Positions 53,653 to 61,295 of a DNA stretch of 64,000 nucleotides are shown here, piece after piece (within the stretch, counting starts at the first letter, position 1; each line of letters opens with the position of its first letter). The position numbers and the translations under genes are program-made. Source of the DNA: Amedibacillus dolichus DSM 3991 (lineage in GTDB: Bacteria; Bacillota_I; Bacilli_A; Erysipelotrichales; Erysipelotrichaceae); assembly GCF_000154285.1 (NCBI RefSeq), contig NZ_DS483470.1:1-64000 (forward strand), in the 5' to 3' direction. Under the pieces are notes generated by a model. The model had not been told where the DNA came from, did no database searches, and saw nothing but the letters and a program-made list of their open reading frames with translations.

Positions 53653-54291
53653 TTACTTTTCGTTGCGAAAATTGGTAATAATTTCGTGGATTTGTTTTGC
53701 GTTATTTGCGATTTGCTGTGTGGTTCCTTTCGTTAAAAGACCACCGAACCCACATATATCGGCACCACAATCTAACCATTCCCGCAAATTGTCTAAGTTA
53801 ATTCCACCACTTGCTAAAATAGGCATATCTGGAATCGGTGTTTTAAAAACCTTGCAAAGCTTTGGACCATAGAAGTCGGAAATAGGAAAGGCTTTTATAA
53901 AAGCCGCCCCTATAGTTAAACCACGAACTGCTTCACTTAAAGAAGTACAGCCGGGTGCATAAGGAATTTGATAACGATTGCAGATTTTTGCAACTCCTTC
54001 GTCAAAGGTTGGCGCGATGATAAACTCTGCACCATTCAAAACAGCATGACGGGCAGTTTCACTATCAAGTACCGTACCGGCACCGACAATGAGTGTATCT
54101 CCATACCTTTCCTTCAAACCTTTAATGACATCACCGGCTGTATTTAACGTATAGCTCATTTCCATGACAGGTACTTCACCCATAATCAATCCATCGGCAA
54201 TCTCACAAGCTCTTTCTAAATCTGCACGAACAATTGCCAATGCACCTGCATCTACCATTTTTTTTGTTGTGTTCATTTTTTTCATGTTCAT
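53653..54291 (-). CDS. KDPG/KHG-aldolase-like protein
   Basis: 212-residue class I aldolase of the Eda family that splits a 2-keto-3-deoxy-6-phospho-sugar acid or related compound into pyruvate and an aldehyde. AIVRADLERACEIAD is at the start, EMSYTLNTAGDVI supplies the catalytic Glu, GAGTVLD is near residue 73, and AAFIKAFPISDFYGP holds the Schiff-base Lys near residue 134. It lies divergent from the PTS cluster with a 292-nt shared regulatory region. It probably handles the sugar acid from that system. The longest frame is used; ATG at M3 or M6 is also possible. Confidence 0.88.
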   Translation of the reverse strand: MNMKKMNTTKKMVDAGALAIVRADLERACEIADGLIMGEVPVMEMSYTLNTAGDVIKGLKERYGDTLIVGAGTVLDSETARHAVLNGAEFIIAPTFDEGVAKICNRYQIPYAPGCTSLSEAVRGLTIGAAFIKAFPISDFYGPKLCKVFKTPIPDMPILASGGINLDNLREWLDCGADICGFGGLLTKGTTQQIANNAKQIHEIITNFRNEK

Positions 54292-54583
54292 TTGTATGAC
54301 CTCACTCTCTCTTTATAACTTGATTGTATGTGAAAGCAAGTACTTATTCAATGGACGAATAGCACAAAGATATTCTTGAAATATGGTCAAGTGAACAAGA
54401 GGAGAGGGACGCTTATTTATTAAGTATATAGTGTCTTTTATAATATATAGAATCCCAAAATAGGTAAGGTTTTTTCTGTTTGTATGAATGAACGAAAAAT
54501 AGTAAAAAGCTTTGGTTTGTTCGACCATATCAAAATGATAGCGATTACAGTAATATAGTTGGTGTAAAGAGGAGGTCATACAA
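54292..54583 (+). promoter_or_regulatory. Divergent intergenic region between aldolase and PTS operon
   Basis: No gene is seen in these 292 bp. A TATAAT at 54439-54444 with a weak TTTATT 17 bp upstream could drive the PTS operon with a long 5' UTR. A second possible -10 lies nearer the start. The SD aagaggaggtcat precedes the IIB gene. It contains no consensus sigma-54 -24/-12 box that I can recognise, unlike many mannose-class PTS operons. Confidence 0.4.
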
Positions 54584-55066
54584 ATGAGTATCGAATTAGT
54601 AAGAGTTGATTTTAGACTTATTCATGGGCAGGTGATTACGCGATGGCTTACACAATGTCAAATCAATGAAATCGTAACAATTGACAATGAGCTTAACAAG
54701 GATCCGTTTATGCAAGAGGTATTTAAAATGGCAGCACCGAAGGGTGTGAAAATTACCATTGTAGATGATGCTACAGCAGTTGCAAAACAGCAAGGAGGAG
54801 AATTTGATAAGAAGCGTGTCATGTTGTTGTTTAAAGGGGTCGAACAATTAAACGTAGCAGTGGAGGCAGGATTGCAATTGGATAAGGTTCAGATTGGTGG
54901 TCTGGGTGGAGGACCGGGAAGAAAGGCGGTCAATAATGCTATTACTTTGGATCGCAAAGATGCGGATACACTGCTTGCACTTGAAAAGCAAGGAATTGAA
55001 ATTTATTTTCAAACGACACCGGACTATCCGTCTGAAACTTTACAAAAGGCAGTAGCTAAATTATAG
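54584..55066 (+). CDS. PTS mannose-class EIIB, first copy
   Basis: 160 residues. The active-site histidine is in VDFRLIHGQVITRW near residue 15, and the glycine-rich IGGLGGGPGRKAVNNA follows near residue 104. Both are diagnostic of the mannose/fructose/sorbose IIB family. It phosphorylates the incoming sugar (or sugar derivative) and obtains phosphate from the IIA encoded at 58343. It is the first gene of the forward operon, 26 nt before IIC. The strong SD is agaggaggtcat. Confidence 0.93.
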   Translation: MSIELVRVDFRLIHGQVITRWLTQCQINEIVTIDNELNKDPFMQEVFKMAAPKGVKITIVDDATAVAKQQGGEFDKKRVMLLFKGVEQLNVAVEAGLQLDKVQIGGLGGGPGRKAVNNAITLDRKDADTLLALEKQGIEIYFQTTPDYPSETLQKAVAKL

Positions 55067-55092
55067 GACAATTTTGAAAGGAGAGAAAAGAT

Positions 55093-55836
55093 ATGGTTAT
55101 TCAAGCAGTTCTAGTTGGCTTAGTGTATTGGTTATCAATGGGGCGTGCATGTTATTTTATTTCATTTGCCATTCGAAAACCGGTTGTTCTAGGAGTTATT
55201 ATCGGATTGATTTACGGTGATGTAGAAGCCGGCTTGATGTATGGTGCAGCGATTCAGCTGATGTATATGGGAGGTATAGAAGCCGGAGGAAATATTCCAT
55301 CGGATCAAGGATTAGCATCTTGTATTGCTATTCCGGCTGCTTTAACTACCGGGTTAAACCCTGCGGCTGCCGTTGCTTTAGCAGTTCCCTTTGGCGTATT
55401 AGGTGTATTGATCAATAATGTTCGCCGTACAATCAATGCTTTCTATAATGCTAAAGCAGATAAATTCGTAGAAGAAGAAAAATATGACGCATTAAATATT
55501 TTTTCCTTCTTACTTCCTTGGCTAACAAATGGAGTATTGTATTTTACTCCGGTATTTGTCGCAACATTATTTGGTGCTGATGTTGTTCAGGCATTTATCA
55601 ATGTAGTTCCGGAATGGGTAATGAACGGCTTGAACAATGCAGGTAACATGCTTCCTGCCCTTGGATTTGCATTGACACTTGTGGTTATGGGAAAACAAAA
55701 ATACTTGCCATTCTTTGTGTTGGGATTCTTCCTATATTCTATTTTAGGATTCTCAATGCTTACCGGTGCGGTTATCGCACTATGTTTGGCACTAATTGTA
55801 TCATTATTCAAGCAGACAGATGAGGAGGTAGCATGA
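55093..55836 (+). CDS. PTS mannose-class EIIC
   Basis: 247-residue membrane protein of the ManY/IIC-sorbose family, with about six hydrophobic segments and the family loops GLIYGDVEAGLMYGAAIQLMYMGG and DQGLASCIAIPAALT near residue 80. It forms the transport channel with IID. The aaggagagaaaag SD precedes the ATG. It overlaps the IID gene by 4 nt (ATGA). Confidence 0.93.
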   Translation: MVIQAVLVGLVYWLSMGRACYFISFAIRKPVVLGVIIGLIYGDVEAGLMYGAAIQLMYMGGIEAGGNIPSDQGLASCIAIPAALTTGLNPAAAVALAVPFGVLGVLINNVRRTINAFYNAKADKFVEEEKYDALNIFSFLLPWLTNGVLYFTPVFVATLFGADVVQAFINVVPEWVMNGLNNAGNMLPALGFALTLVVMGKQKYLPFFVLGFFLYSILGFSMLTGAVIALCLALIVSLFKQTDEEVA

Positions 55837-56699
55837 TGAGTGAACAAACGACAACTATACAGGTTCGTGAAGAAAAAGAAACACTTATTACCAAGCACGA
55901 TTTAGTAAAGGCTTGGTGGCGTTGGACAACTGCTGTTGAGGTTCCGGTAAGCTTTGACCGTATGCAGGCATTGGCATTTGGTTACTCTATGAATCCCGTG
56001 ATGCGCAAGATCTATAAAGATAAACCGGAAGAATTAAAAGAAGCAATGCAGCGACATACTTCTATGTTTAATACAAACTGTGATTGGGGAAGCATTATTC
56101 ATGGAATTACAATTTCTTTAGAGGAACAGCGTGCTTTAGGACATGAAGGTGAAATTACGCCTAGTATGATTCAATCTTTAAAGCTAGGCTTAATGGGACC
56201 TTTAGCAGGAATTGGTGATAGTGTCGATCAAGGAATTGTTGCTACGATTCCCTTAGCAATCTTTGTGCCGATGGCACAGGAGGGATCAATCATAGCTGCC
56301 TTCATTCCCGGATTGATTTATATTGCCTGGTCGTATCTATGGTCATGGACACTTTTCAAAAAAGGTTATACATTAGGGAAAAACTCAGTATTGGAAATTT
56401 TACATTCCGGTGCAATCAAAAAGGTTATAGATATTGCAAGTATTGTCGGTTTGTTTATGATTGGGTGTTTATCAGCATCTTATGTAAAGGTTTCGACAAT
56501 TCTTGAATTCACAAGTGGTGCTGATGGAGCGGTTACGACAGTACAATCGATTTTAGATGGTATTTTGCCGAATATGCTTCCGTTTGCAGTGGTTATGGGA
56601 ATGTATTTATATATTACCAAGCGAGGACCAAAATTTATTCGTTTAATGGTCTATACGATGGTAATAGCCATTGTATTAACCTTCTTCCATATTATTTAA
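55833..56699 (+). CDS. PTS mannose-class EIID
   Basis: 288 residues. ManZ-type landmarks: TKHDLVKAWWRWTTAVEVPVSFDRMQALAFGYSM near the start, NTNCDWGSIIHGITISLEEQRALG near residue 70, and MGPLAGIGDSVDQGIVATIPL near residue 122. Several membrane segments fill the C-terminal half. It completes the permease IIC-IID. Two ATGs in tandem (55833, 55836) are equally good starts. Confidence 0.93.
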   Translation: MMSEQTTTIQVREEKETLITKHDLVKAWWRWTTAVEVPVSFDRMQALAFGYSMNPVMRKIYKDKPEELKEAMQRHTSMFNTNCDWGSIIHGITISLEEQRALGHEGEITPSMIQSLKLGLMGPLAGIGDSVDQGIVATIPLAIFVPMAQEGSIIAAFIPGLIYIAWSYLWSWTLFKKGYTLGKNSVLEILHSGAIKKVIDIASIVGLFMIGCLSASYVKVSTILEFTSGADGAVTTVQSILDGILPNMLPFAVVMGMYLYITKRGPKFIRLMVYTMVIAIVLTFFHII

Positions 56700-56782
56700 T
56701 GCAATACAAAAGGATAGAGAAGGGAAGCAATGCCCTTCTCTATCATTGATTGAAAGCTAGAATTAGAAAGGGGACGATTTTG

Positions 56783-57715
56783 ATGAAGGTTTTAATTACA
56801 CCAAGAGGGTTTGCTAAATATGGTCAAAAAGAGATAGAAAGAATGCGCAATGCTGGATTAGAGGTACACTATAACGATACAGGCTTGGCATATACCCATG
56901 AAGAATTTAAAAAATTAGGCAAAGATGCTGATGCAATTATTGTAGGGGTTGATTGCCTAGATGCAAAAATGATGTCTGACTGTCCGAATTTGAAGGTAGT
57001 ATGTAAATTCGGTGTAGGAACGGATAATATTAATTTGGATTATGCAAAGGCACACAATATTTATATTGGACGTTGTGTGGGAGGAAATTCTCGTTCAGTT
57101 GCTGAACATGTAGTCGCTTTGATGTTTGCAGAGGCAAAAAATTTATATTATGCAATAAATGAAGTAAAGGATCATAAATGGACAAAGCCAACCGGTTTGG
57201 AAATTTACGGAAAAAGATTAGGGATTATCGGCTTTGGCATGATTGGTAAATATTTGGCAGATTATGCTAATGGTATGGGAATGGATATTTATGCGTATGA
57301 TGCTTTTCCTATTTCCAAGGAAGAAGCGCAAAAGCATCATGTGAAGGTTGCATCGCTAGATGAAATTTATGCGGAGTGTGATTATATATCTTTGCATGTT
57401 CCCTTGTTAGATTCAACCAAAAATATGATTTCTACCAAAGAATTCAAAAGTATGAAGAACTCGGCATGTATAATCAATGCGGCAAGAGGTGGTGTCGTAG
57501 ATGAGGAAGCCTTGTATGAAGCATTAACAACTGGTGAAATTCGTTCAGCATGCTTTGACGTTTATAGCAGTGAACCTCCGAAAGAAAATGATAAGCTGCT
57601 AGCATTAGAAAACTTTTATTTAACACCACATACAGCAGCAAGAACACAGGAAGCGGAAACACGTACTTGCGAAATATCAGCAAATATCGTGATGGAGCAG
57701 CTATTAGGAAAGTAG
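56783..57715 (+). CDS. D-2-hydroxyacid dehydrogenase
   Basis: 310-residue NAD(H)-dependent enzyme of the SerA/D-isomer-specific family. The Rossmann motif GFGMIGKYLADYA is near residue 156, ASLDEIYAECDYISLHVPLLDSTKN has the expected acidic residue, and INAARGGVVDEEAL precedes the catalytic region with DVYSSEPP and HTAARTQEA (His). It could oxidise or reduce a D-2-hydroxy sugar acid in this pathway; a role in serine synthesis is unlikely from its context. The ATG at 56783 follows gaaaggggacgatttt. Confidence 0.86.
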   Translation: MKVLITPRGFAKYGQKEIERMRNAGLEVHYNDTGLAYTHEEFKKLGKDADAIIVGVDCLDAKMMSDCPNLKVVCKFGVGTDNINLDYAKAHNIYIGRCVGGNSRSVAEHVVALMFAEAKNLYYAINEVKDHKWTKPTGLEIYGKRLGIIGFGMIGKYLADYANGMGMDIYAYDAFPISKEEAQKHHVKVASLDEIYAECDYISLHVPLLDSTKNMISTKEFKSMKNSACIINAARGGVVDEEALYEALTTGEIRSACFDVYSSEPPKENDKLLALENFYLTPHTAARTQEAETRTCEISANIVMEQLLGK

Positions 57716-57722
57716 GATAGAA

Positions 57723-58325
57723 ATGGAAGAAATCGGAAAGCAGTTTCTCAGAAACATTCAAAATGAAATGGATAGCTATATTGAAAATGTAGATTTAACG
57801 GCTGTTGAGAAAGCGGCAAATATCATTCTCGATGCAGAAGCTAAAGGAAAACGTGTACATGTAACCGGAATCGGAAAACCGGGGCATGTGGCCGGCTATA
57901 TAGCAAGCCTATTATCTTCAACAGGCACTCCATCATATGAATTGCATGGAACTGAAGCTGTACATGGATCAAGCGGACAAGTGCTGACAGGTGATGTTGT
58001 AATTGCGATTAGTAACAGTGGAGAAACTTCGGAGTTAAAAGCGACAGTGGATACGCTTTTAAAAAATGGTGCACGCATCATCAGCTGTACTGGGAATGAG
58101 CACTCTAGCTTAGCACAAAGCAGTGAGGTATGTCTTAAAGCACAGGTAGGACGAGAAGGAGATTCGTTGAATAAGCCTCCTCGTGCATCTATTCTTGCGG
58201 AAATCATTGTTTTACAGCTGTTGAGTGATCTTTTACAAGAACATAAGCATTTGAATTTAGAACAATATGTAAAATGGCACCCGGGTGGAAGCTTAGGAAA
58301 AAGTATTCGAGAAATGGAAAAATAG
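57723..58325 (+). CDS. SIS-domain sugar-phosphate isomerase, KpsF/GutQ-like
   Basis: 200 residues. It has a single SIS domain (VTGIGKPGHVAGYIASLLSSTGTPSYELHGTEAVHG, ISNSGETSEL) and the C-terminal HPGGSLGK motif of the arabinose-5-phosphate isomerases, but lacks their CBS domains. It probably isomerises an aldose/ketose phosphate produced by this pathway; it could alternatively be a deaminase/isomerase-type SIS enzyme. It lies 7 nt after the dehydrogenase and 17 nt before the IIA gene. Confidence 0.83.
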   Translation: MEEIGKQFLRNIQNEMDSYIENVDLTAVEKAANIILDAEAKGKRVHVTGIGKPGHVAGYIASLLSSTGTPSYELHGTEAVHGSSGQVLTGDVVIAISNSGETSELKATVDTLLKNGARIISCTGNEHSSLAQSSEVCLKAQVGREGDSLNKPPRASILAEIIVLQLLSDLLQEHKHLNLEQYVKWHPGGSLGKSIREMEK

Positions 58326-58342
58326 AAAGAGGAAATTTACGT

Positions 58343-58762
58343 ATGGAAAAATTTAATATTGTTATCGGTACGCATGGTCGTTTCGGTGAAGAACTTGTAA
58401 AATCAGCAGCTATGATTGCCGGAAATATGGGACGTGTGAAAGCTTGTTCCTTATTGCCAGAGTATTCTTTTGAAGATTATATGAGGCTGGTTGATAAAAC
58501 ATTATCTGAATTAGACGATGGTTTTACAATTGTATTAGTGGACTTGTATGGTGGTACACCTTGTAATACTTTTACTGTTTTATCGCAAAAATACCATTAT
58601 GATGTTTTAACAGGTTTAAACTTACCAATGCTGATTGATTTATATTTGAAGCTGTCAAATGCATCGGAAATTGAGGCGAAAAAGCTTGTTACGGAAACCA
58701 TCAATACGTATATGCAGGCATGTGTTCATACCAATCAGCAATTGTATGGAAATCAGGAATAA
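58343..58762 (+). CDS. PTS mannose-class EIIA
   Basis: 139 residues with the phosphorylated His in NIVIGTHGRFGEELVKSA near residue 9 and the DLYGGTPCNTF loop near residue 72, characteristic of the IIA-Man family. It receives phosphate from HPr and gives it to the IIB proteins. The ATG at 58343 follows agaaagaggaaatttacgt. A longer frame from 58274 overlaps the SIS gene and is less likely. Here IIA is placed after the catabolic enzymes, an uncommon order. Confidence 0.92.
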   Translation: MEKFNIVIGTHGRFGEELVKSAAMIAGNMGRVKACSLLPEYSFEDYMRLVDKTLSELDDGFTIVLVDLYGGTPCNTFTVLSQKYHYDVLTGLNLPMLIDLYLKLSNASEIEAKKLVTETINTYMQACVHTNQQLYGNQE

Positions 58763-58837
58763 AAAATATCTAAATCATTAGTATTTACACCAAAAAAATG
58801 ATATTCTTTATCCATAAAATATTTCGAGGTGAACGAA

Positions 58838-59920
58838 ATGCTAATAGGAGAAATTTTTGACGAGTTTATTCATGTTATACATGAAAATCAAAAATATACA
58901 ATCGGTTTAATCAACGAAAATAAAGAGGTTGCTTTGTGCAGTGATACAAAGATGATTTCAAAAACTGTTGATTATAATTATCCGAATAAAAACAATGTTT
59001 TTTTTGAAATTGTCGTAAAAGGACAGGAGTTTGGTTATTTATGGGTGCATGGAGAAGATGATAGCTTACAAATGATTGCGAATCTTCTTCATGAATCTTT
59101 AACGATTCGTTTGATGTATGAGATTAACCAAACGAATTTAAAACGTAAAGTTACCAAGGACGATGAATTGGTAAAATGTTTATTAGATGAAAAAACATTT
59201 GATATGAATAAGGTTGTAGATTTATTGAGTGATCTCGGCATTCATGCAAATAAATCACATGTGGCTATTTATATGGTGTCGGATTATAAGGATATCAATA
59301 CGCAAGATGTTGTGCGATTGAAAATGAATCCGGATAGCAGAGATATTATTTACTCTTTGCTAAATGAACGCTGCTTATTGATTTTTAAAGATATTCCAGA
59401 AAATATAAAGGAAAATGAAGAAATACGTGAATATATTTTAAAATATATCAAAAAACTAAAAGAGATGGACTTTGATGATTGCTATTATTTTGTAGGAACC
59501 TTACAGCATAAGATGCGGCAATATGTGAATTCCTATAAAAGTTGCTTATGGTTGAAAAATCATACGAAATATGAAAAGAATGTACCGGTTTTCTTTATGG
59601 ATTATTTGACAGAATACTTTTTTTCAAAAATATCTGTAAAAGATATTGAAAACGTTTATAATTATTATATAGAAACTGGTAAGAAAATCGATGTCGAAGA
59701 ATTAGAAGAAATATCCAAAGCTTTATTGATGAATGATTTTAATTTAACACAGGCTGCGGAGGAATTGTTTTTACATAAAAACACGTTAATCTACAAATTG
59801 AAAAAATATGAAGAGGTATTTCAAATAGACATAAGGGGTAGTTTTCAAGGGAAGATTCTTTTGATATTGATTTCATATATGTTAAGGGAGCAAAATCATA
59901 AGGTACAAGTGGGTGAGTAG
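58838..59920 (+). CDS. CdaR/PucR-family transcription regulator
   Basis: 360 residues. The C-terminal HTH LTQAAEELFLHKNTLIYKLKKYEEVF near residue 312 is the HTH_30 motif of CdaR/PucR proteins. The first half resembles the sugar-diacid recognition region of CdaR in outline only. CdaR proteins usually activate glucarate or galactarate genes, so one inside a mannose-class PTS operon is unusual. It sits between IIA and a second IIB gene and overlaps the latter's region by a few nt. The ATG at 58838 has the SD gaggtgaacgaa; GTG 58829 would add three residues. Confidence 0.82.
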   Translation: MLIGEIFDEFIHVIHENQKYTIGLINENKEVALCSDTKMISKTVDYNYPNKNNVFFEIVVKGQEFGYLWVHGEDDSLQMIANLLHESLTIRLMYEINQTNLKRKVTKDDELVKCLLDEKTFDMNKVVDLLSDLGIHANKSHVAIYMVSDYKDINTQDVVRLKMNPDSRDIIYSLLNERCLLIFKDIPENIKENEEIREYILKYIKKLKEMDFDDCYYFVGTLQHKMRQYVNSYKSCLWLKNHTKYEKNVPVFFMDYLTEYFFSKISVKDIENVYNYYIETGKKIDVEELEEISKALLMNDFNLTQAAEELFLHKNTLIYKLKKYEEVFQIDIRGSFQGKILLILISYMLREQNHKVQVGE

Positions 59921-59921
59921 T

Positions 59922-60392
59922 ATGATAGGGATAAATATTAAACTTGTTCGTGTGGATTCTCGATTGCTGCATGCAACCGTACAATTAAATTGGAATCAAT
60001 TTATAAACGCAGATCAGGTGTGGGTAGTAAGTCCGCATTATGTGGAAGATCCGTTCATTGCCAATGTGATGCAGCTTTGCTTACCGAAAACAATGAAGGT
60101 AAATTTTTATTCGGTAGAACAGCTAATGGAACAGCTGCAAATGAAAGCAAATACTAAAGTTATGATTATTTTTCCGAATTTAGAGATTGTAGAGAAGGCT
60201 GTTCGTTTAGGATTTTATACAAAAGAAATTCAACTTCCTTATCCAGCCAGTCGCGTGATGTTGAAGTCATTAACAGAATATTTTTCGCAGGAAGATATTA
60301 AAAGGATTCGTTATATTCAAGAGCAAAATATTAAATTGTTTTTTCAGACAACACCTTATGATAATAAAGACTATACGATATTTACAAAGTAA
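59922..60392 (+). CDS. PTS mannose-class EIIB, second and divergent copy
   Basis: 156 residues. The active-site histidine is kept in VDSRLLHATVQLNW, but the usual HGQV reads HATV, and the glycine-rich motif of the first IIB (GGLGGGPGRK) is replaced by a stretch without glycines (IQLPYPASRVMLKSL). Overall fold elements remain (FFQTTPYD at the end). It may be a specialised or regulatory IIB that signals phosphorylation state to the adjacent CdaR-like regulator. The start follows gtgggtgagt, overlapping the regulator end. Confidence 0.8.
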   Translation: MIGINIKLVRVDSRLLHATVQLNWNQFINADQVWVVSPHYVEDPFIANVMQLCLPKTMKVNFYSVEQLMEQLQMKANTKVMIIFPNLEIVEKAVRLGFYTKEIQLPYPASRVMLKSLTEYFSQEDIKRIRYIQEQNIKLFFQTTPYDNKDYTIFTK

Positions 60393-60404
60393 AGGAGAAT
60401 ATTT

Positions 60405-61295
60405 ATGTTTGAAGGAATTATTACACCAATCGTAACCCCGTTTCATCGTGATGCACAGGAAAGCATCAACTATGAAGCAACTAAGCAGCTAATCGATCAT
60501 TTGATTGAGCATGGCGTTAAGGGGATTTTCATCCTCGGCAGCAATGGCGAATTTCATGTCATTGATGAAGAAGAAAAGCTTGCCTTTGCGAAAAGGGTTA
60601 TCGAAATTGTTAATAAGCGAGTACCGGTGTTTGTCGGAACCGGTTGCTGCTCCACAAGAGAAACGATTCGCTTATCGAAGAAAATGGAGGAACTAGGAGC
60701 CGATGCGCTAAGTGTGATCACACCATATTTCTTAAAGCCAACCAATGCCAATTTGTATGCGCATTATAAGGCGGTGGCAGAAAGTGTGAACCTACCAATT
60801 GTTTTATATAACATACCCAAAGCAACCGGTTGTCCGTTAGATCCAGAACTTGTAAATGAGCTGGCAGATATTGAAAATATCAAGGCAATCAAAGACAGCA
60901 GCGGAGAAGAAGAACGCATACAGGCGTATGCAAAGATTGCGAAAGAAAAGGATTTCAAGCTGTTGATAGGCAGTGATTCAAAAATATCCTACGCTTATGA
61001 ATTAGGCGCAAGCGGCGCGGTAGCAGGAACCAGTAATGTTATCACAGATACATTGGTGGCATTGGATCGTGCATTGAGAAATAAGGAACAAGAGAGTGCA
61101 GAGAAGTTGCAAAAGGATATTGATGTATTGCGAGGAGTTTTAAAGCTAGGAACGGTACCGAGTGCGATGAAGCGAGCAGTGGAGCTAGCCGGTATTGCCG
61201 AGGTAGGACCTGCTCGTATGCCTGTAGAGGAACTAAGCAAGGAAGATGATGAAAAAATCATCGAAATGTTAAGATATTATGGTTTAGCTAAATAA
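60405..61295 (+). CDS. DapA/NanA-family aldolase
   Basis: 296-residue class I aldolase or lyase. ITPIVTPFHRD is at the start, LGSNGEFHV near residue 46, catalytic Tyr in IVLYNIPKAT near residue 135, and the Schiff-base Lys in IKAIKDSSGEE near residue 165. This is the family of DHDPS, sialate lyase and 2-keto-3-deoxy-sugar-acid aldolases. The operon points to a sugar-acid aldolase, giving pyruvate and an aldehyde, rather than lysine synthesis. It ends the PTS operon. The SD is aaaggagaat. Confidence 0.88.
   Translation: MFEGIITPIVTPFHRDAQESINYEATKQLIDHLIEHGVKGIFILGSNGEFHVIDEEEKLAFAKRVIEIVNKRVPVFVGTGCCSTRETIRLSKKMEELGADALSVITPYFLKPTNANLYAHYKAVAESVNLPIVLYNIPKATGCPLDPELVNELADIENIKAIKDSSGEEERIQAYAKIAKEKDFKLLIGSDSKISYAYELGASGAVAGTSNVITDTLVALDRALRNKEQESAEKLQKDIDVLRGVLKLGTVPSAMKRAVELAGIAEVGPARMPVEELSKEDDEKIIEMLRYYGLAK

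Follow-up and report, generated by a model that had tools for sequence, protein, structure and literature searches.

The arabinose-5-phosphate isomerases (APIs) KdsD, GutQ and KpsF and the API of the CFT073 island combine a SIS fold with API motifs including HPGGxLG. Both features are shared by a SIS isomerase encoded in the first 64,000 nucleotides of contig NZ_DS483470.1 of Amedibacillus dolichus DSM 3991 (hereafter the window), which, like the CFT073-type API, is a stand-alone form without CBS domains. In contrast to the known APIs, however, the window isomerase is tied to a phosphotransferase system (PTS) and a pyruvate-type aldolase in a bacterium lacking a synthase for 3-deoxy-D-manno-octulosonate (KDO), the eight-carbon sugar acid of lipopolysaccharide and of the pectin rhamnogalacturonan II. 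Its gene belongs to a ten-gene cluster (53653-61295), in which open reading frame (ORF) calling and family scans located all families named there by an earlier note based on the sequence alone (hereafter the original prediction). The cluster is conserved and, by prediction, catabolic, a variant within the established type of PTS clusters for sugar acids. It is read here as an operon that would break down a 3-deoxy-2-keto sugar acid, with KDO as the likeliest candidate; taken as a whole, this sequence-based scheme falls a little short of being probable.

Comparison with further described systems reveals partial similarities. The cluster on the CFT073 island (L042), composed of a PTS EIIC, a PRD regulator, a MalY-like protein, a SIS isomerase and a dehydrogenase, shares PTS, SIS and D-2-hydroxyacid dehydrogenase with the window, but its EIIC is unrelated to that of the window by search, DapA and Eda are missing and a MalY-like gene is present. 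The operons for D-glucosaminate (Dga) and glucoselysine (Gfr) likewise join a mannose-class EIIABCD to dedicated catabolic enzymes. However, family scans of the ten proteins of the cluster detected neither an ammonia lyase nor aldolases of the DgaF type nor deglycases of the FrlB type, and no KduI or KduD, in agreement with the original prediction, which had noted the lack of ammonia lyase and KduID; an assignment to the Dga, hyaluronan or Gfr systems was therefore rejected. YagE-type 2-keto-3-deoxygluconate (KDG) aldolases and N-acetylneuraminate lyases (NAL) belong to the same TIM-barrel class I pyruvate aldolase type as the window DapA (about 34% identity), for which the PTS context, unlike in these enzymes, suggests a phosphorylated substrate. 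Within the same genome, a second mannose-class PTS cluster (L066, G000:C5 119000-131000) shares the PTS, a dehydrogenase (34% identical) and an Eda-type aldolase (30%), but contains two mannitol-1-phosphate-dehydrogenase-like proteins and a transaldolase resembling fructose-6-phosphate aldolase (FSA), and neither SIS nor DapA. No description of the window cluster was found in the literature searched, where KDO aldolase or KDO catabolism together with a PTS or API was mentioned only in passing, and it is apparently undescribed so far.

The isomerase gene (57723-58325, + strand) encodes a KpsF/API-type protein, the closest solved relatives of which are E. coli KdsD (2xhz) and 5uqi, deposited under the molecule name phosphosugar isomerase and presumably the CFT073 API. 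In alignments the window protein keeps the API motifs TGIGKPGH, HGTEAVHG, SNSGET and HPGGSLG, and the corresponding active-site patterns GxGKxG, HGxEAxHG, SNSGE and HPGGxLG, the residues of which have well-known roles in APIs, are retained in nearly all orthologs. The KpsF/GutQ model TIGR00393 matches with 117 bits over its SIS half; this lies below the full-length cut-off of 204, in keeping with the lack of CBS domains. The protein is API-like and predicted to interconvert arabinose-5-phosphate and ribulose-5-phosphate, as known APIs do (PMC11591822), which makes arabinose-5-phosphate a likely intermediate of the pathway. Since no KDO synthase KdsA scores above cut-off in the window genome (best matches 122 and 107 bits versus 314), the isomerase appears not to serve KDO synthesis. 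An API reportedly occurs in the Gram-positive C. tetani as well (Cech 2017, cited in PMC11301363).

The last gene of the cluster (60405-61295, + strand) encodes a class I aldolase of the DapA/NAL superfamily (PF00701, 242 bits). The roles of Thr45 and Arg138 in dihydrodipicolinate synthase, the enzyme now termed 4-hydroxy-tetrahydrodipicolinate (HTPA) synthase, are well established. At these positions the window protein carries Asn (GSNGEF) and Ala (YNIPKATG), whereas both DapA paralogs of the genome (L063 and L065) keep Thr and Arg (GTTGE, YNVPxR). Assignment as a lysine gene was therefore rejected, and the annotation dapA, which members of this aldolase group carry in public records, is doubtful for the window copy. 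The enzyme is predicted to be a 2-keto-3-deoxy-acid-phosphate aldolase and not an HTPA synthase. Its structure is predicted with confidence (pLDDT 92) and matches YagE best; the fold matches do not separate substrates.

With the SIS protein as query, 84,980 species genomes yielded 40 loci; extra loci were added from plasmids, whole-genome searches and CFT073. All locus counts describe one SIS clade, the close relatives of a single query, in which related loci are not independent. The full ten-family set is contiguous in five other genomes, namely those of Merdibacter massiliensis (L003), a Clostridiales metagenome-assembled genome (MAG; L004), Erysipelothrix tonsillarum (L011), Clostridium intestinale (L040) and G345 (L054). 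A sixth relative, Holdemanella biformis (L002), has a shortened set which is intact from EIID onward; sequence identities, L002 included, range from 42 to 93%. Such repeated occurrence of all ten side by side shows that their grouping is not due to chance. Absence of co-occurrence in related genomes had been named beforehand as a refutation of the original prediction; with five full sets and one shortened set, its reading as a sugar-acid cluster that unites a PTS with pyruvate-type aldolases is supported, and this cluster is conserved and apparently undescribed. Close SIS homologs are rare: among the 395 genomes of the class only 7 have one, the window's own genome counted. In H. biformis, a serine-recombinase-like gene (L002:5464-7062) lies directly upstream, at the expected site of the first EIIB, EIIC and Eda, with DeoC and split genes for transketolase downstream of DapA.

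The conserved core consists of the SIS isomerase and the DapA-type aldolase, usually accompanied by Eda. In 22 other loci SIS lies beside a PTS of the EIIC-GAT (ascorbate/galactitol, AG) class, which is unrelated to the mannose class; DapA is present in 19 of these, Eda in 16 and an HpaI-type aldolase in 6; loci without DapA have an HpaI-type aldolase (L007, L055). Of 29 SIS loci linked to a PTS, 28 have a pyruvate-type aldolase next to SIS, the lone exception ending at a contig edge, whereas none lies within 5.5 kb in any of the 12 ribokinase-linked SIS loci. This is the pattern expected if the aldolase converts the PTS product to the isomerase substrate. The ribokinase-linked proteins fall into a SIS clade of their own, in which 12 of the 14 rows lie beside ribokinase and some together with RbsD and ABC genes, which fits a pentose-5-phosphate as substrate of the isomerase. 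In the SIS tree, the mannose-PTS rows form one supported group (99/92), joined by a single row of the AG-PTS type (L006), and the rows with ribokinase form another (100/99). Together with the locus contents, the tree suggests that the importer was exchanged while isomerase and aldolases stayed; this appears so for a sample of one clade with non-independent rows. The original prediction had overlooked both the API-like nature of SIS and the pairing of this core with an unrelated PTS class.

Further loci illustrate the range of the SIS family. AG-PTS, SIS, DapA and Eda are carried together on plasmids (L050, L051, L052), namely a 163-kb plasmid of C. difficile, a conjugative plasmid of E. faecium and a 919-kb plasmid of E. 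gilvus. The E. faecium PTS colonisation island was considered as the same system and rejected, as the plasmid EIID matches are just 36-42% identical; likewise, carriage by phages was rejected, where matches are distant and KdsD-like only. In L002, L006, L026, L029 and L030, genes for transketolase are found in the vicinity of SIS. A Streptococcaceae MAG (L034:7735-10481) combines a talarate/galactarate-dehydratase-like enzyme with SIS, DapA and a PTS of glucose-class appearance. In Ruminiclostridium and relatives (L015, L019, L021, L033, L035 and others), ribokinase and SIS genes, some with RbsD-like and ABC genes, possibly constitute a D-arabinose route via arabinose-5-phosphate.

Splitting a phosphorylated 3-deoxy-2-keto acid of eight carbons is the direct link between a pyruvate aldolase and an API, and since pyruvate and arabinose-5-phosphate add up to KDO-8-phosphate, KDO is the simplest substrate. 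A precedent for the chemistry is provided by NAL, a member of the DapA superfamily, which forms KDO in vitro from D-arabinose and pyruvate (PMC4016182). In the proposed pathway, EIIABCD would import KDO and phosphorylate its terminal hydroxyl group, the DapA-type aldolase would split the resulting KDO-8-phosphate into pyruvate and D-arabinose-5-phosphate, and SIS would isomerise the latter to ribulose-5-phosphate, which would enter the pentose-phosphate route; Rpe and transketolase are found in the window genome. The probable role of Eda is to cleave a second, shorter acid brought in by this transporter, such as KDG taken up as 2-keto-3-deoxy-6-phosphogluconate (KDPG), with pyruvate and glyceraldehyde-3-phosphate as products. 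The dehydrogenase, present in all seven mannose-PTS loci and in none of the 22 AG-PTS loci, could represent an add-on specific to the mannose-PTS version that might, for instance, reduce one of the products, a 2-keto acid. The phosphorylated deoxy-keto acid put forward in the original prediction is consistent with this scheme as an intermediate. Judged by gene content, motifs and co-occurrence, KDO itself is a credible substrate, if still somewhat less than an even prospect. More tentative is the wider view of a dedicated bacterial KDO catabolism with a catabolic API, in which importers from at least two PTS superfamilies with no relation to each other, Man and AG, would have been exchanged around a fixed enzyme core and the mannose version would be under a PucR-type regulator read out through a dedicated EIIB.

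Several observations weigh against KDO as the substrate. None of the clusters was found to contain a recognisable gene that is specific to KDO or releases it. The DapA-type protein passes the NCBIfam HTPA-synthase model TIGR00674 (225 versus a cut-off of 206 bits). SIS is just 39% identical to the CFT073 protein, so that API activity of the clade is a prediction. Moreover, the scheme needs neither Eda nor the dehydrogenase, yet Eda is kept in most loci, and the enolase-superfamily sugar-acid dehydratase of L034 hints that one relative, if not more, handles an aldonate.

This dehydratase would be in line with a C6 sugar-acid pathway of the gluconate, 2-ketogluconate or deoxy-hexonate type. Here the PTS would deliver a 6-phospho acid, the dehydrogenase would act at C2, and Eda and/or DapA would cut a 2-keto-3-deoxy-6-phospho acid into pyruvate and glyceraldehyde-3-phosphate, while SIS would isomerise something else. 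KDPG is the classical substrate of Eda-type aldolases, and mannose-class PTS, D-2-hydroxyacid dehydrogenase and Eda occur together again in the second cluster of the same genome. However, no IlvD/Edd dehydratase is encoded in this genome and none in the cluster, so that KDPG would have to be imported or reached by another route; in addition, the AG-PTS loci lack the dehydrogenase and several of them Eda, and the API-like SIS is left unexplained. A C6 pathway is considered unlikely. Less likely again is a transporter for two unrelated substrates, D-arabinose, which would yield arabinose-5-phosphate for SIS only, and a separate keto-deoxy acid for the aldolases. Ribokinase-linked SIS indeed needs no aldolase, and L029 unites PTS, an FSA-like gene, SIS and transketolase with no pyruvate aldolase nearby, but the near-constant presence of the aldolase beside PTS-linked SIS and its absence beside ribokinase-linked SIS would remain without explanation.

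Two further possibilities are very improbable. Glycolaldehyde could be freed by the aldolase from a pentonate-derived keto-deoxy acid and be joined by FSA to glyceraldehyde-3-phosphate, giving arabinose-5-phosphate, which SIS would convert to ribulose-5-phosphate. The route is enzymatically possible, the same enzymes form the engineered FsaA-KdsD route (PMC9947464), and FSA-like genes are found in L029, beside SIS, and elsewhere in the window genome; the clusters with SIS and DapA, however, showed no such gene, and phosphorylation by the PTS would lead to phosphoglycolaldehyde and not to glycolaldehyde. The other is a sugar-diacid pathway (glucarate- or galactarate-like) sensed by a CdaR-type regulator, as the original prediction had suggested. 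The regulator (58829-59920, + strand) does possess a PucR-type C-terminal helix-turn-helix domain (PF13556, HTH_30; 41 versus 27 bits) but reaches only 18.9 bits against the cut-off of 612 for the CdaR equivalog of NCBIfam, and the diacid recognition domain PF05651 gave no match up to E=10 in three regulator orthologs. Furthermore, the N-terminus of the regulator models as GAF-like, diacids have no primary hydroxyl group for PTS phosphorylation and the cluster contains no diacid dehydratase. While the sugar-acid part of the original prediction was supported, its diacid part was not.

In the regulator model (pLDDT 80, pTM 0.58), residues 1-108 match the N-terminus of DhaR (Z 9.2, root-mean-square deviation 2.6 over 108 residues) and residues 107-355 align with Rv2242 and BAD_0249; the middle of the protein is GGDEF-like and degenerate. 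As GAF-like folds are common, the N-terminal match is no more than suggestive of such a domain. Directly downstream of the regulator in seven of seven loci is a second mannose-class EIIB (59913/59931-60392, + strand; PF03830, 94 bits), which is 25% identical to the first and keeps its His (RLLHATV); the position of DapA around this pair differs among loci. The regulator probably reads PTS phosphorylation through this dedicated EIIB.

The transporter itself is complete, with EIIA, EIIB, EIIC and EIID of the mannose class and His phosphosites. On the + strand, EIIB (54584-55066; PF03830, 147 bits; RLIHGQV) is followed by EIIC (55093-55836; PF03609, 255 bits) and EIID (55833-56699; PF03613, 291 bits), and EIIA (58346-58762; PF03610; IGTHG) lies downstream of SIS, with a listed ORF start at 58274. 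The phosphosite His is conserved in six of six loci in EIIB and in seven of seven in EIIA. The NAD-type, phosphoglycerate-dehydrogenase-like D-2-hydroxyacid dehydrogenase (56783-57715, + strand; PF02826/PF00389) falls below the curated phosphoglycerate dehydrogenase cut-off; its best start is the ATG at 56783, while the listed ORF opens with a TTG at 56750. Between transporter and enzyme genes, a stem-loop (56713-56744, + strand; z = -4.3) is found without a U-tract behind it. Strong stem-loops of unrelated sequence occupy the same gap between EIID and dehydrogenase genes in L002, L003, L004, L011, L040 and L054; in the six gaps scored, which exclude the 395-nt gap of L004, z ranges from -2.3 to -5.5. 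Perhaps the stem-loop sets different expression of transporter and enzymes.

Eda, a class I aldolase of the Eda/KHG type (53653-54291, - strand; PF01081, 111 bits), has the PF01081 fold with the Schiff-base Lys, both the Lys in KAFP and the Glu in EMSYT being conserved. It scores 200 bits against a cut-off of 238 with NCBIfam PRK06552 and stays under all NCBIfam cut-offs. The original prediction had singled it out as divergent, but it is 69-81% identical to its orthologs in the mannose-PTS loci, and its identity to the copy in the plasmid cluster of C. difficile is 73%.

If KDO is indeed the substrate, gut Gram-positives, Paenibacillaceae and hosts of the plasmid-borne clusters in C. difficile and Enterococcus would use it, API genes would have a purpose in organisms making no KDO, and candidate genes would be at hand for KDO aldolase (EC 4.1.2.23). 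This enzyme is known from old biochemistry and, to our knowledge, no gene has been assigned to it.

With gaps of only -4 to 83 nt, the nine + strand genes look like one operon, from which Eda diverges. Eda is divergent in M. massiliensis too and runs in the direction of the operon in L004, L011, L040 and L054. The flanking genes resemble housekeeping genes, assigned by eye as dUTPase-like upstream and lspA- and rluD-like downstream.

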